IMG/VR virus record: IMGVR_UViG_3300015261_000015
Span: 1-30,731 of that record
From: a virus
Direction: 5' to 3' (one strand)
Length of the DNA stretch: 30,731 bases
Shown in pieces: positions 3,491 through 21,312 of the stretch. The position numbers and the translations under genes were made by a program. Position 1 is the first letter of the stretch. Every line of letters starts with the position of its first letter. The notes beneath the pieces are model-generated. The model saw nothing but the letters and a program-made list of their open reading frames with translations, did no database searches and had not been told where the DNA came from.

Positions 3491-3844
3491 ATGGCTGATC
3501 CGACTTCCAGCGCTGTGACTGGCGTTGTCATGGGCCTCGGCCTGGCGACTGCCATGCCAATCATCGACGGTGAAGCCCTGTTTGGGGCCCTGCTCGGTGC
3601 CTGGCTGGTGACCAGCACTAAGCACGACCTCAAGGTCTGGCAGCGGCTGGGTTCGCTGTTCCTGTCTGCCGGCGTCGGCTACCTGTTCGCGCCGATGGCG
3701 TTGCAGCTGATGCCCTTTCTAACCAGCGGCGGCGCGGCGTTTGGCTGCGCCCTGGTCATCATCCCGATCAGCATCAAAGCCATGGTGTGGGTGGAGAAGG
3801 CCGACCTCTGGGAAATTGTGAGACGTATCAGAGGAGGGAGCTGA
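3491..3844 (+). CDS. Putative phage holin, multi-TM
   Basis: A 117-residue hydrophobic protein with about four predicted membrane stretches (roughly residues 8-24, 28-42, 50-72 and 78-98) and a charged C-terminal tail. It matches the general pattern of the putative holin found at this place in Pseudomonas P2-like phages, where the pore it forms releases or activates the endolysin. An AAGGA site lies upstream. It sits directly before a second membrane protein and the muramidase gene, which supports a lysis role. Family assignment is by pattern and context. Confidence 0.75.
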   Translation: MADPTSSAVTGVVMGLGLATAMPIIDGEALFGALLGAWLVTSTKHDLKVWQRLGSLFLSAGVGYLFAPMALQLMPFLTSGGAAFGCALVIIPISIKAMVWVEKADLWEIVRRIRGGS

Positions 3845-3846
3845 GC

Positions 3847-4125
3847 ATGCTCACCATCGAACTGATCATCCCCCTGACCACCGCCCTGGCCTACCTGCTC
3901 AGTGCCCTTCGCCTGGCCTGCTACAGTCGAGGCGCCGCTCGGTTTCGCCGAGGTATCTCGCTGCTCGCGAGTCTGTTCGGCGCTTCACTGTGCCTGTGCG
4001 GTCTGGAAATCATTCTGTACCGGCCCCCAGTCAGTCTTTGGCACGCTGTCGCCACAGTGCTGCTCTGCACCCTGATTTTCCGTTCTCGCGGCAACGTCGC
4101 CGCCCTGTTGAGGCCCAGCGCATGA
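3847..4125 (+). CDS. Second holin-like membrane protein (3-TM family)
   Basis: A 92-residue protein with three hydrophobic segments (about residues 4-22, 35-55 and 65-80), like the phage 3-TM holin families. I chose the ATG at 3847 because of the strong GAGGAGGGAGC ribosome site just before it. The frame also opens earlier inside the first holin gene. It overlaps the endolysin start by ATGA. It could be the true holin or an antiholin partner of the preceding gene, and sequence alone does not say which. Confidence 0.65.
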   Translation: MLTIELIIPLTTALAYLLSALRLACYSRGAARFRRGISLLASLFGASLCLCGLEIILYRPPVSLWHAVATVLLCTLIFRSRGNVAALLRPSA

Positions 4126-4967
4126 CCTTTACCTTGCGTCACGGCGACCGCTCCCAGGCGGTGCGCATCCTGCAAAAGAACCTGAACGACCAAGGCGCCA
4201 GGCTGGTGATGGACGGCGACTATGGCGATTCCACCGAAGCGGCGGTACGGGCGTATCAGTTGAAAGCCGGTTTGGTCGCCGATGGCATTGCCGGCGAAAA
4301 GACCCAGGCCAGCCTAGCCGGCGGTGACTGTCAGCACCTGCTGAAAAACGAAGACCTGGTGCAGGCTGCGCAGATCCTCGATGTACCGCTGGCGAGCGTC
4401 TATGCCGTCAACGAGGTTGAATCCAAGGGCAAGGGCTTCTTGGCGAATGGCAAGCCAGTGATTCTGTTCGAGCGGCACATCATGTACCGCCAGCTCGCCA
4501 TGCCACGCTACGAAGGCGACAACCCCGACGAACTCAAGCGCCACGCCGACCAACTGGCCGCCGCCAATCCGGCCATCGTCAATCCGAAGTCCGGCGGCTA
4601 TGCCGGCGGAACTGCCGAACACCAACGCCTGAGCCATGCGCGTCTGATCGATGACACCGCCGCGCTGGAATCCGCCTCCTGGGGCGCGTTCCAGATCATG
4701 GGATTTCACTGGCAGCGCCTGGGCTATGTCAGTGTGCAAGCGTTTGTCGAGGACATGGGCGCAGGCGAGTCTCAGCAATTCGCCGCCTTTGTGCGTTTCA
4801 TCCAGACCGACCCGGTTCTGCACAAGACGCTGAAAGCTCGTAAATGGGCCGAGTTCGCCAAGCTCTACAACGGCCCGGACTACCAGCGGAACCTGTACGA
4901 CATCAAGCTCCAGCGCGCCTATGAGCGGCACGCTGACTGCAGCTGCGGCCAGGCGGTGGCGGCATGA
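4122..4967 (+). CDS. Endolysin: peptidoglycan-binding domain plus N-acetylmuramidase
   Basis: A 281-residue endolysin with no signal peptide, so it depends on the holin. Residues 4-66 form a peptidoglycan-binding domain (RHGDRSQAVRILQKNLN, DGDYGDSTEAAVRAYQ, GIAGEKTQASL). Residues from about 78 to 272 match the N-acetylmuramidase family formerly DUF3380. Candidate catalytic acids lie in VNEVESKGKGF (residues 97-107) and LFERHIMY (115-122), and the family segment SASWGAFQIMG is present. The start at 4122 overlaps the preceding stop as ATGA. The longer frame opening at 3990 is inside the holin gene and is rejected. Confidence 0.93.
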   Translation: MTFTLRHGDRSQAVRILQKNLNDQGARLVMDGDYGDSTEAAVRAYQLKAGLVADGIAGEKTQASLAGGDCQHLLKNEDLVQAAQILDVPLASVYAVNEVESKGKGFLANGKPVILFERHIMYRQLAMPRYEGDNPDELKRHADQLAAANPAIVNPKSGGYAGGTAEHQRLSHARLIDDTAALESASWGAFQIMGFHWQRLGYVSVQAFVEDMGAGESQQFAAFVRFIQTDPVLHKTLKARKWAEFAKLYNGPDYQRNLYDIKLQRAYERHADCSCGQAVAA

Positions 4968-19439: not shown

Positions 19440-20234
19440 GTGGGACGAACTTCAAGATGGACCTCGACTCCTCTAGCAAAAGGCATTAAGGTATACACAT
19501 TATCATCTTGGAAGTATTTTTCCGACTTCGTCAACCAAGAACTGCTCGAATACACTACATACGTGTACCGAGGTCACGGTAATAGTAAATGGAAACTAGA
19601 ACCGACTATAGACAGGCTTATTAAATATCCGACTTCGCCAAGACGTGAGAGTCATCTTGAACGCTTTAAATTTGCTACTCGAGGCCGACGGGGTTCTAAC
19701 CCAATCAAAATAGAGCATGAAAACGACTGGTGGGCTTTGGGACAACATCATGGGCTGGCCACTCCATTGTTGGACTGGACAGAATCACCATTTGTTGCTT
19801 TATTTTTTGGAGCCAACGCTGCAAGAAAAGAAAAGTCTGATTTCTATTCAGTATTTGCCATTGCCCAATCATCGATTGACAAAGTAAATACATATATTTG
19901 CAATAATGCCGCCATACCTCTAATCAACAATCGCAAACAGACTATTAAGATAGTACGTCCGTTAAGCGATGAGAATATGCGCCTTGTCAGTCAGCGAGGG
20001 TTATTCACAAGAGGACCAAACAACGTAGACGTTGAAAGTTGGGTCTCAAAACATACGCCCGCGTTAACCGAAGGCCGAAACATCCACCTCTTGAAAATAA
20101 ATATCCCCAACAAAGATGTGGACGAGTGTTTACGTTATCTAAACAGAATGAACATCAATCATCTCACCCTATTCCCTGACGTTCCGGGCGCATCAGAGTT
20201 CTGCAATCAACATCTAACAATCAGCACCTATTAA
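19440..20234 (+). CDS. Cargo protein with FRG domain
   Basis: A 264-residue protein with the FRG domain pattern: YRGH at residues 43-46 and the hallmark WALGQHHGLATPLLDWTESPFVALFF (about 98-123). The GTG at 19440 has an AGGA site 9 bases upstream. An earlier conserved start is not available. The gene is strongly AT-rich compared with the tail genes and lies after D, where P2-like phages often carry accessory genes. FRG-domain proteins are common in prophages and mobile elements but their biochemical activity is not established to my knowledge. A phage-exclusion role is a hypothesis from position and composition. No signal peptide or membrane segment is seen. No clear promoter was found in the 60-base gap before it. 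Confidence 0.8.
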   Translation: MGRTSRWTSTPLAKGIKVYTLSSWKYFSDFVNQELLEYTTYVYRGHGNSKWKLEPTIDRLIKYPTSPRRESHLERFKFATRGRRGSNPIKIEHENDWWALGQHHGLATPLLDWTESPFVALFFGANAARKEKSDFYSVFAIAQSSIDKVNTYICNNAAIPLINNRKQTIKIVRPLSDENMRLVSQRGLFTRGPNNVDVESWVSKHTPALTEGRNIHLLKINIPNKDVDECLRYLNRMNINHLTLFPDVPGASEFCNQHLTISTY

Positions 20235-20265: not shown

Positions 20266-20295
20266 TAAGTTGCCCGATAGCAGTCGAGCAACTTA
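20266..20295. terminator. Hairpin between convergent genes, probable bidirectional terminator
   Basis: TAAGTTGC (20266-20273) and GCAACTTA (20288-20295) form a perfect 8-bp stem extended by an inner CGA/TCG triplet after one mismatch. It lies 31 bases after the FRG stop and 5 bases before the stop of the leftward small gene. U tracts are poor on both sides, so efficiency is uncertain. Confidence 0.5.
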
Positions 20296-20300
20296 CAACA

Positions 20301-20459
20301 TCAAAGACTCAACAAAACACTAATAAAACGAAGAATGTCTTGCCGACATACCTCATCAAGGAGTCTAAATCGCTCTATGAGGATTCGTTCGCGTTCATCC
20401 AGTTCAGACCATCTAATGATATCCGACTTGTTGGCCTCTGATTCTTTCATCACTGACAT
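20301..20459 (-). CDS. Small 52-residue helical protein downstream of the lysogeny genes
   Basis: A 52-residue charged protein, MSVMKESEANKSDIIRWSEL... ending DEVCRQDILRFISVLLSL. A GGAG site lies 7 bases before the ATG at 20459, and the codons avoid stops over the whole stretch while the opposite strand looks random. The second half (about residues 19-51) is a predicted amphipathic helix pair, similar in feel to the tail of short Cro/C1 repressors. It is read in the same direction as the repressor and DUF2511 genes, 129 bases after the latter. Function is unknown. Confidence 0.62.
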   Translation of the reverse strand: MSVMKESEANKSDIIRWSELDERERILIERFRLLDEVCRQDILRFISVLLSL

Positions 20460-20493
20460 GTGTCACTCCATTCAACACGCTCGGACGCCTGAT

Positions 20494-20509
20494 ACCAACA
20501 TCGGTACCA
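20494..20509. repeat. Degenerate 16-bp direct repeat, copy 2
   Basis: ACCAACATCGGTACCA, 14 of 16 identical to 20236-20251. This copy lies 35 bases upstream of the start of the 52-residue gene, in its likely promoter/leader region, and contains the palindrome GGTACC. Confidence 0.4.
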
Positions 20510-20588
20510 ACCAAAGCGCCCGGGGAGTGAGCTATTTTCAGCATGTTCGGCCTTCTCCTGAGCCCACGAGAAAAATTTTCATTACAAA

Positions 20589-20933
20589 TTATGCCCCTCC
20601 GCAGAGCGCCTGGGCACGCTGAACGATATCGCTATAGTCCATCTTGATGGATGGCATCGTAGGATTGGGCTTGGTGATGTCTTGGCCGTCTGACCAACCC
20701 TGATCTTTTGCCTGACGCCGTGCACTGCCGCTCAATGCATAGACGGTTCCATCCGAGGTTCGGGCCAACGCCTTGGGCGATGGTCCAAAGCACAACAGGT
20801 CAACGCTATCGACCGTAAACGGCCAAGCGTCGCCATACTCTCTGCTCGAAACCGTCTGGCTCTTTTCCTTGGCACCACACACACCCGAAACAAGCATTGC
20901 CAGCACCACTACCGATAACGTCATCCTTTTCAT
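20589..20933 (-). CDS. Secreted DUF2511-like protein, co-oriented with repressor
   Basis: A 114-residue protein with a signal peptide (MKRMTLSVVVLAMLVSGVCG) and a likely SPase I cleavage near residue 20. There is no proper lipobox. The mature part has the DUF2511/YebY-like layout: YGDAWPFTVDSVDLLC, then GTVYALSGSARRQAKDQGW and a final SDIVQRAQALC with two cysteines that could pair in the periplasm. The ATG at 20933 has an AGGAG site 8 bases upstream. It begins only 11 bases after the repressor stop codon, so it is probably on the same leftward transcript and expressed in the lysogen. A surface or periplasmic exclusion role is plausible but unproven. Confidence 0.7.
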   Translation of the reverse strand: MKRMTLSVVVLAMLVSGVCGAKEKSQTVSSREYGDAWPFTVDSVDLLCFGPSPKALARTSDGTVYALSGSARRQAKDQGWSDGQDITKPNPTMPSIKMDYSDIVQRAQALCGGA

Positions 20934-20944
20934 GTCCAAACTCC

Positions 20945-21265
20945 TTACTTTTTTACTGTAAAAGCCCTTAGTAGGCGCATCACCGCGCCTTTGTCCTCAT
21001 CGCCCAGGCTGCGTACGTGCATCACGATTTCCATGTCATCGTTGGACAACTGGCTTTTGCCCATAGATGACCGCTGGCCGGTTACTACGTACAGGACATC
21101 CACCCCTTGTTCAGCAACTGCTGCCAGGTAACTGGCATCCGGGCTGCGCTCGCCCTTCTCATAGTTGTACTGACTGTTTTTCGAGGCGCCAGCCTTCGCC
21201 GCGAACTCAGTCTGATTGAAGCCCAAGCGCTCGCGCTCTTCTTTTAGGCGATCACCAATTCCCAC
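20945..21265 (-). CDS. Short phage repressor, XRE/C1-type helix-turn-helix
   Basis: A 106-residue regulator with an N-terminal HTH (about residues 3-60: IGDRLKEERERLGFNQTEFAAKAGAS, YNYEKGERSPDASYLAAVAEQGVDVLYVVTG). A short helical tail (LGDEDKGAVMRLLRAFTV) probably dimerises. I chose the GTG at 21265, which has a GGAG site 6 bases upstream. The frame extends to a TTG at 21298 inside the operator. There is no S24 autocleavage domain, so like P2 C it is not expected to be cleaved during SOS. It faces the Cro-like gene across the switch region. Confidence 0.85.
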   Translation of the reverse strand: MGIGDRLKEERERLGFNQTEFAAKAGASKNSQYNYEKGERSPDASYLAAVAEQGVDVLYVVTGQRSSMGKSQLSNDDMEIVMHVRSLGDEDKGAVMRLLRAFTVKK

Positions 21266-21283: not shown

Positions 21284-21312
21284 TTGACATTCCCACAATC
21301 ATGGGAAATACT
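21284..21312 (+). promoter_or_regulatory. Rightward early promoter
   Basis: A perfect TTGACA at 21284-21289, a 17-base spacer and AATACT at 21307-21312 (4 of 6). It lies between the repressor and the first rightward gene, with the palindromic operator filling the spacer. This is the expected early (PR/Pe-like) promoter. Confidence 0.7.
21290..21307. promoter_or_regulatory. Palindromic operator in the lysogeny switch
   Basis: TTCCCACAATCATGGGAA has perfect 6-bp arms around 6 bases. The half-site ATTCCCACAA recurs at 21258-21267, 31 bp away on the same face of the helix, overlapping the repressor start. This fits cooperative repressor binding and autoregulation. Confidence 0.65.

Follow-up and report, generated by a model that had tools for sequence, protein, structure and literature searches.

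A putative lysogeny operon of a Pseudomonas prophage with a variable cargo slot, a conserved structured RNA and a possible SinI-like repressor modulator

The stretch of DNA analysed here (the window) is 30,731 bases long and constitutes a virus record of IMG/VR. Its genes, some of which were named from reading their translations, run from a capsid scaffold-like gene through tail genes and gpD to a leftward immunity gene that faces rightward early genes, followed by an Ogr/Delta-like protein, a primase-helicase-like protein and an integrase. Judged from the sequence, this order is that of a P2-family phage. Among phage records, DNA similarity across the immunity region was confined to phages of P. 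aeruginosa; three of these were examined and belong to Citexvirus. The locus is read here as a putative lysogeny operon, running leftward, of a Pseudomonas prophage of the P2 family (Citexvirus-like), which is one part of an explanation that we hold, as a whole, at a probability of about 0.45. The features concerned are the following.

20945-21265, minus strand: repressor gene, 106 residues, GTG start at 21265, HTH_3 match (E=1.2e-7)
20589-20933, minus strand: DUF2511 secreted protein, 114 residues, PF10709 match at 37.3 bits (curated cutoff 21)
20447-20560, minus strand: conserved structured RNA element that overlaps the first few codons of the small gene
20482-20522, minus strand: bulged hairpin H1, 8 + 7 pairs with a 5-nt bulge on the 5' side and compensatory changes
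20460-20478, minus strand: weaker hairpin H2, with the GGAG Shine-Dalgarno sequence (20469-20466) in its loop
20301-20459, minus strand: 52-residue gene, free homologue of the C-terminal hairpin of the repressor
20266-20295, no strand assigned: possible two-way terminator, perfect 8-bp stem TAAGTTGC/GCAACTTA with a 14-nt loop
21284-21312, plus strand: rightward (lytic) promoter-like site TTGACA-17-AATACT, from a promoter scan whose number of promoter-like sites was not above chance
21290-21307: inverted repeat TTCCCACAATCATGGGAA, in and over the spacer of the rightward promoter-like site, read from the sequence

The minus-strand order given by an earlier, sequence-only reading (repressor at 21265-20945, DUF2511 gene at 20933-20589, 52-codon gene at 20459-20301) was confirmed, as were the 11 bases that it counted between the repressor stop and the DUF2511 ATG at 20933. 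The same holds for the two ribosome-binding sites it had assigned: AGGAG for the DUF2511 gene (20945-20941), abutting the repressor stop codon, and GGAG for the small gene, 6 bases 5' of the ATG at 20459. This layout of repressor and DUF2511 gene is favourable to coupled translation. Gene spacing, together with the precedent of the lysogenic operon of phage K139, supports the proposal that repressor and DUF2511 would be co-expressed. The arrangement also exceeds chance: a protein search returned 27 viral-contig loci carrying a DUF2511 gene, each of which keeps the gene order, with a homologous small ORF at the same position and in the same Shine-Dalgarno context. The promoter scan of the window revealed no sigma-70-like leftward promoter. 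A sigma-54 promoter in a conserved TGGCAC stretch was considered and rejected by eye, the spacing to GC being 13 and not 10. At the other end, the 20266-20295 stem lies between the small gene and a convergent FRG gene; it has no T-run and does not appear in the scan listing. In the literature searched, no paper dealt with this operon or with phage-encoded DUF2511.

The repressor consists of an N-terminal HTH and a short C-terminal helical tail, without an S24 peptidase domain. Its nearest NCBIfam entry, the RstR family NF041951, scored 41.2 bits, under the cutoff of 80. The tail is probably the part by which such short repressors dimerise, and the inverted repeat TTCCCACAATCATGGGAA is a candidate operator for the protein.

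The small ORF is a real gene under purifying selection, since its median dN/dS, calculated with dS near saturation, is low in frame (0.18) and not in the shifted frames (0.81 and 1.64). It had been described as unannotated, which is only partly correct: phages Dobby, D14A and Sirocco have related genes of 38 aa that carry the annotation hypothetical or phage protein. One sequence, present in both L007 (4476-4688) and L071, has an altered C-terminus after about residue 40 (..QKRTYYGSL); it is probably a frameshift and a natural broken copy.

Between the DUF2511 gene and the small gene lies a gap of about 130 bases that is more conserved than expected of intergenic DNA. This gap is a structured RNA, as its compensatory base-pair changes exceed the controls. 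In a MAFFT alignment of 27 sequences, 5 of 26 pairs showed compensatory changes, in 22 cells, a level reached by none of 500 shuffles and compared with 1 to 8 cells for slid controls. An alignment of 44 sequences gave compensatory changes at 16 of 21 pairs, in 90 cells (0/500 shuffles; 5-10 cells in slid controls); having been fitted to the structure, this alignment is biased towards it, and the MAFFT alignment is less so. All 15 pairs of H1 are formed in the window. For H2, 89.7% of cells are paired in a broad, structure-fitted alignment, and unfitted alignments show little or no covariation. Folding is better for the coding strand (z -2.05) than for its complement (z -0.96), which is what a contribution of wobble pairs to an RNA fold would predict. 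Upstream of H1 (20560-20530 on the minus strand of the window, and in homologues), the motifs GGTGGCAC and GNTGAAAAT are conserved in nearly all members; the window deviates in GGTGGCAC, the first of the two, and no pairing partner was found for either.

A covariance model of the element scored 94-114 bits on loci outside its training set (L065, L066) and detected it in 22 of 399 genomes of the genus of Pseudomonas sp. GD04091, from which 24 loci were analysed. A second model found it in Dobby (E=6.9e-9), D14A and Sirocco, where it overlaps the start of the 38-aa gene each time. With strict filters, it was not detected in genomes newly sampled from the wider order. Rfam 15 holds no family for it: the matches obtained were at chance level (E 0.26 or worse) and fell far short of the gathering scores. 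The element could be used as a probe for operons of this kind.

What follows the element is nearly constant: a 38-58 aa ORF stands after it in nearly every locus of the bacterial genomes, the exception being L102, in which the match is truncated. What precedes it varies, so that the constant unit is made of the RNA element and the small gene, behind a variable slot. The contents of the slot are listed below; where the cargo genes were longest, the short locus sometimes ended before the repressor.

L067-L073: DUF2511
L064, L074-L077, L087, L090, L096, L098: empty
L079-L082, L084, L100, L102: zinc-ribbon membrane proteins
L083, L085: 156-aa secreted protein
L097: 145-aa secreted protein
L086, L088, L089, L094, L101: other membrane proteins
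L078, L091, L092, L095: UmuC-type polymerase
L099: BRCT-like protein (weak)
L093: SHOCT-type protein, named by eye

About 10 of 13 cargo kinds, as grouped post hoc, appear to be membrane or secreted proteins, compared with 3 of the 31 other window genes. Since most slot genes have this appearance, the slot could be mined for anti-phage proteins that act at the envelope. In Dobby, a secreted protein is placed 3' of the small gene instead. The UmuC-type error-prone polymerase found before the RNA element in four Pseudomonas genomes indicates that the unit also ends likely SOS-linked operons. Several of the membrane proteins (L079, L082, L088, L102) are mosaic, with a common C-terminal REGRPRKVEV... 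on differing membrane N-termini; conversely, a zinc-ribbon N-terminus (MALKPCKSC) is joined to differing C-terminal parts. The FRG-domain gene that faces the operon (19440-20234, plus strand; PF08867, E=5e-24) lies between gpD and the lysogeny genes and matches the PADLOC candidate defence family PDC-S15 very strongly (E=6.7e-95). Its position is taken by a methyltransferase and a ParB-like protein in D14A, and by a LuxR/HTH gene and a hypothetical gene in Dobby and Sirocco; with such differing genes in other Citexviruses, it looks like a second cargo slot.

Variable genes between constant flanks, next to a bulged stem that changes in sequence and keeps its shape, would also be expected of an attC-like recombination site, in which the hairpin acts as DNA to allow cargo exchange. 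We consider this highly improbable: with a single exception, every genome carrying the element has just one copy, neither a second site on the repressor side nor an attC core was seen, and the wobble pairs agree with an RNA made from the coding strand.

Pairing of an ACTCC 5' of H1 with the small-gene Shine-Dalgarno sequence appeared plausible by eye and was rejected: about 15% of shuffles (median) matched it, which is not clearly above chance, and the predicted accessibility of the site (0.31) is near that of control genes (0.42 for 20 other ORFs, 0.30 for DUF2511). These weak sequestration statistics lend themselves to an alternative in which the element acts on the message, either as a processing or stabilising structure that separates the repressor-cargo mRNA from the small-gene mRNA, or as the target of an RNA-binding protein of phage or host, RsmA for example, with a GGA in a loop. 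Consistently, H1 is always 3' of the last cargo gene, and ANGGA is found at the Shine-Dalgarno sequence in most members. We nonetheless regard a message-level role as rather unlikely, given that in nearly all loci examined, those without cargo included, the element overlaps the beginning of the small gene. In the reading that we prefer, the RNA leader would limit translation of the small gene, and little product would be made until the structure opens.

The DUF2511 protein carries a hydrophobic N-terminal signal followed by a strongly conserved mature part with two conserved cysteines, and its gene is under purifying selection (median dN/dS 0.09). The window protein has no lipobox (it reads ..VSGVCGA); boxes of the LAGC/LSGC type occur only in some homologues (L021, L026). 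No PADLOC family matched it, and a DUF2511 scan of genome contigs returned two loci only.

A close precedent for such a gene at this position is Vibrio phage K139, also of the P2 family, whose record annotation gives a mapped lysogenic operon cI-orf2-glo-int. As in the window, further genes follow the repressor, among them a periplasmic protein annotated for phage exclusion, Glo; like Glo, the window protein is secreted, and its gene follows that of the repressor in a P2-family prophage. The K139 orf2 product has a BRCT domain, as does (weakly) the Pseudomonas cargo protein of L099. In contrast with the window, K139 has a larger repressor, and its match to the RNA model is weak and wrongly placed (E=0.12). 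Glo itself was rejected as a homologue of DUF2511, hhalign detecting no homology between the two (probability 0.2%, P=0.29). In the 186-like Salmonella phages PSP3 and SW9, with the order CI-DUF2511-int, a homologous DUF2511 gene (hhalign 96%, P=2.6e-9) starts 8 bases after the immunity repressor; unlike in the window, the CI is unrelated and much larger, there is no RNA element, and the integrase gene comes next. The presence of DUF2511 directly after an unrelated CI in PSP3, SW9 and 613R3 is independent evidence that the lysogenic position has been selected. Together with the Glo parallel, it supports expression in the lysogen and a role in the envelope. In L028 (about 3700-4270), a deletion apparently fuses or truncates the repressor and DUF2511, leaving the RNA element and the small ORF intact.

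A further parallel is Ltp of Streptococcus phage TP-J34, a lysogeny-module envelope protein that is transcribed in the prophage and blocks DNA injection (PMC3952083); it differs from DUF2511 in being a lipoprotein of a Gram-positive host and in belonging to an unrelated family. By analogy, DUF2511 most likely acts in superinfection exclusion like Glo or Ltp: in the periplasm, it would stop adsorption or DNA entry of related phages.

The predicted fold of DUF2511 might point to another function. The nearest fold is that of E. coli YebY (7n0j, Z 5.7, the next and unrelated row being at Z 3.0), followed by Microbispora MlbQ (Z 4.9 and 4.7), and the DUF2511 profile also matches MlbQ (E=0.00096). 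The folds of these two secreted proteins may be shared by DUF2511; YebY belongs to a chromosomal copper operon, and MlbQ is a lipoprotein conferring lantibiotic immunity on its producer. The gene could accordingly serve lysogenic conversion against envelope stress, for instance in copper handling or in resistance to a bacteriocin or a lantibiotic-like peptide, rather than exclusion. This is a possibility that we hold with some doubt: model confidence is moderate (pLDDT 66), the Z scores are low, a common fold is no proof of function, and the slot houses many unrelated envelope proteins at the place where the exclusion genes of K139 and TP-J34 sit.

It had been proposed that the small protein might help DUF2511 in its function. 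This found no support and was rejected, as the small gene is also present where DUF2511 is absent and beside at least 10 other cargo genes. The constant association of RNA element and small gene behind a variable slot indicates that the small gene belongs with the repressor and not with DUF2511. Its occurrence without DUF2511, combined with its homology to the repressor tail, makes the repressor the more likely partner. Profiles of the small-protein family and of repressor tails match with a probability of 76% for a close set and 94-96% for a diverse set; the best alignment reaches 95.9% (P=5.3e-9), a score attained by none of 200 column shuffles, and reversed or unrelated DUF2511 profiles gave no signal. 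An AlphaFold2 model of the protein predicts a two-helix hairpin (helices 22-32 and 36-51). These comparisons identify the 52-residue protein as the C-terminal helical hairpin of the repressor in a free copy. Searches for it returned no PDB relatives and no PADLOC family.

Such a relation has a counterpart in Bacillus. According to PMC3163267 and PMC5864091, SinR is a protein of about 110 aa made of an HTH and a hairpin, and SinI is a free copy of that hairpin; in PMC3163267, SinI-SinR heterodimers are reported to abolish DNA binding. The small protein resembles SinI in being a free homologue of the C-terminal hairpin of its cognate repressor and differs from it in its phage setting, in its RNA leader and in not matching Pfam SinI. 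Since it would stand to its repressor as SinI stands to SinR, the role of an antirepressor or tuner is favoured.

The main rival is that the small protein serves as a co-repressor, whose hairpin joins the repressor tail to form larger, stronger complexes that stabilise lysogeny. The homology to the repressor tail fits this equally well, and the gene lies after that of the repressor, in the same direction, in the lysogenic operon, a place in which an antirepressor made constitutively would defeat itself. Yet the small protein has no DNA-binding part, the covarying leader suggests that its dose is held down or controlled, and SinI, the best-studied free repressor tail, is an antagonist; we judge a co-repressor to be rather unlikely, though a serious competitor.

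Altogether, the explanation put at about 0.45 above is that of a lysogeny operon in which an envelope "moron" slot has exchangeable contents and the last gene encodes a SinI-like repressor modulator under RNA control. Repressor, cargo, RNA leader and small gene would be carried in the lysogen on a single transcript. The small protein would pair with the tail of the repressor and weaken or otherwise tune its dimers, as SinI does with SinR; switching off a repressor that is not cleavable would require a modulator of this kind. The most specific form of the proposal is more doubtful: that a new Pseudomonas prophage RNA family gates translation of a repressor-tail microprotein and so sets lysis-lysogeny, with the envelope slot on the same transcript.

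If true, the choice between lysis and lysogeny in phages whose repressors are not cleavable would fall to an antirepressor of the SinI kind under RNA control. The induction of prophages whose short repressors have no self-cleaving domain is often unexplained, and a free repressor tail, encoded downstream of a conserved RNA structure, would provide a concrete, testable answer as to how it occurs.
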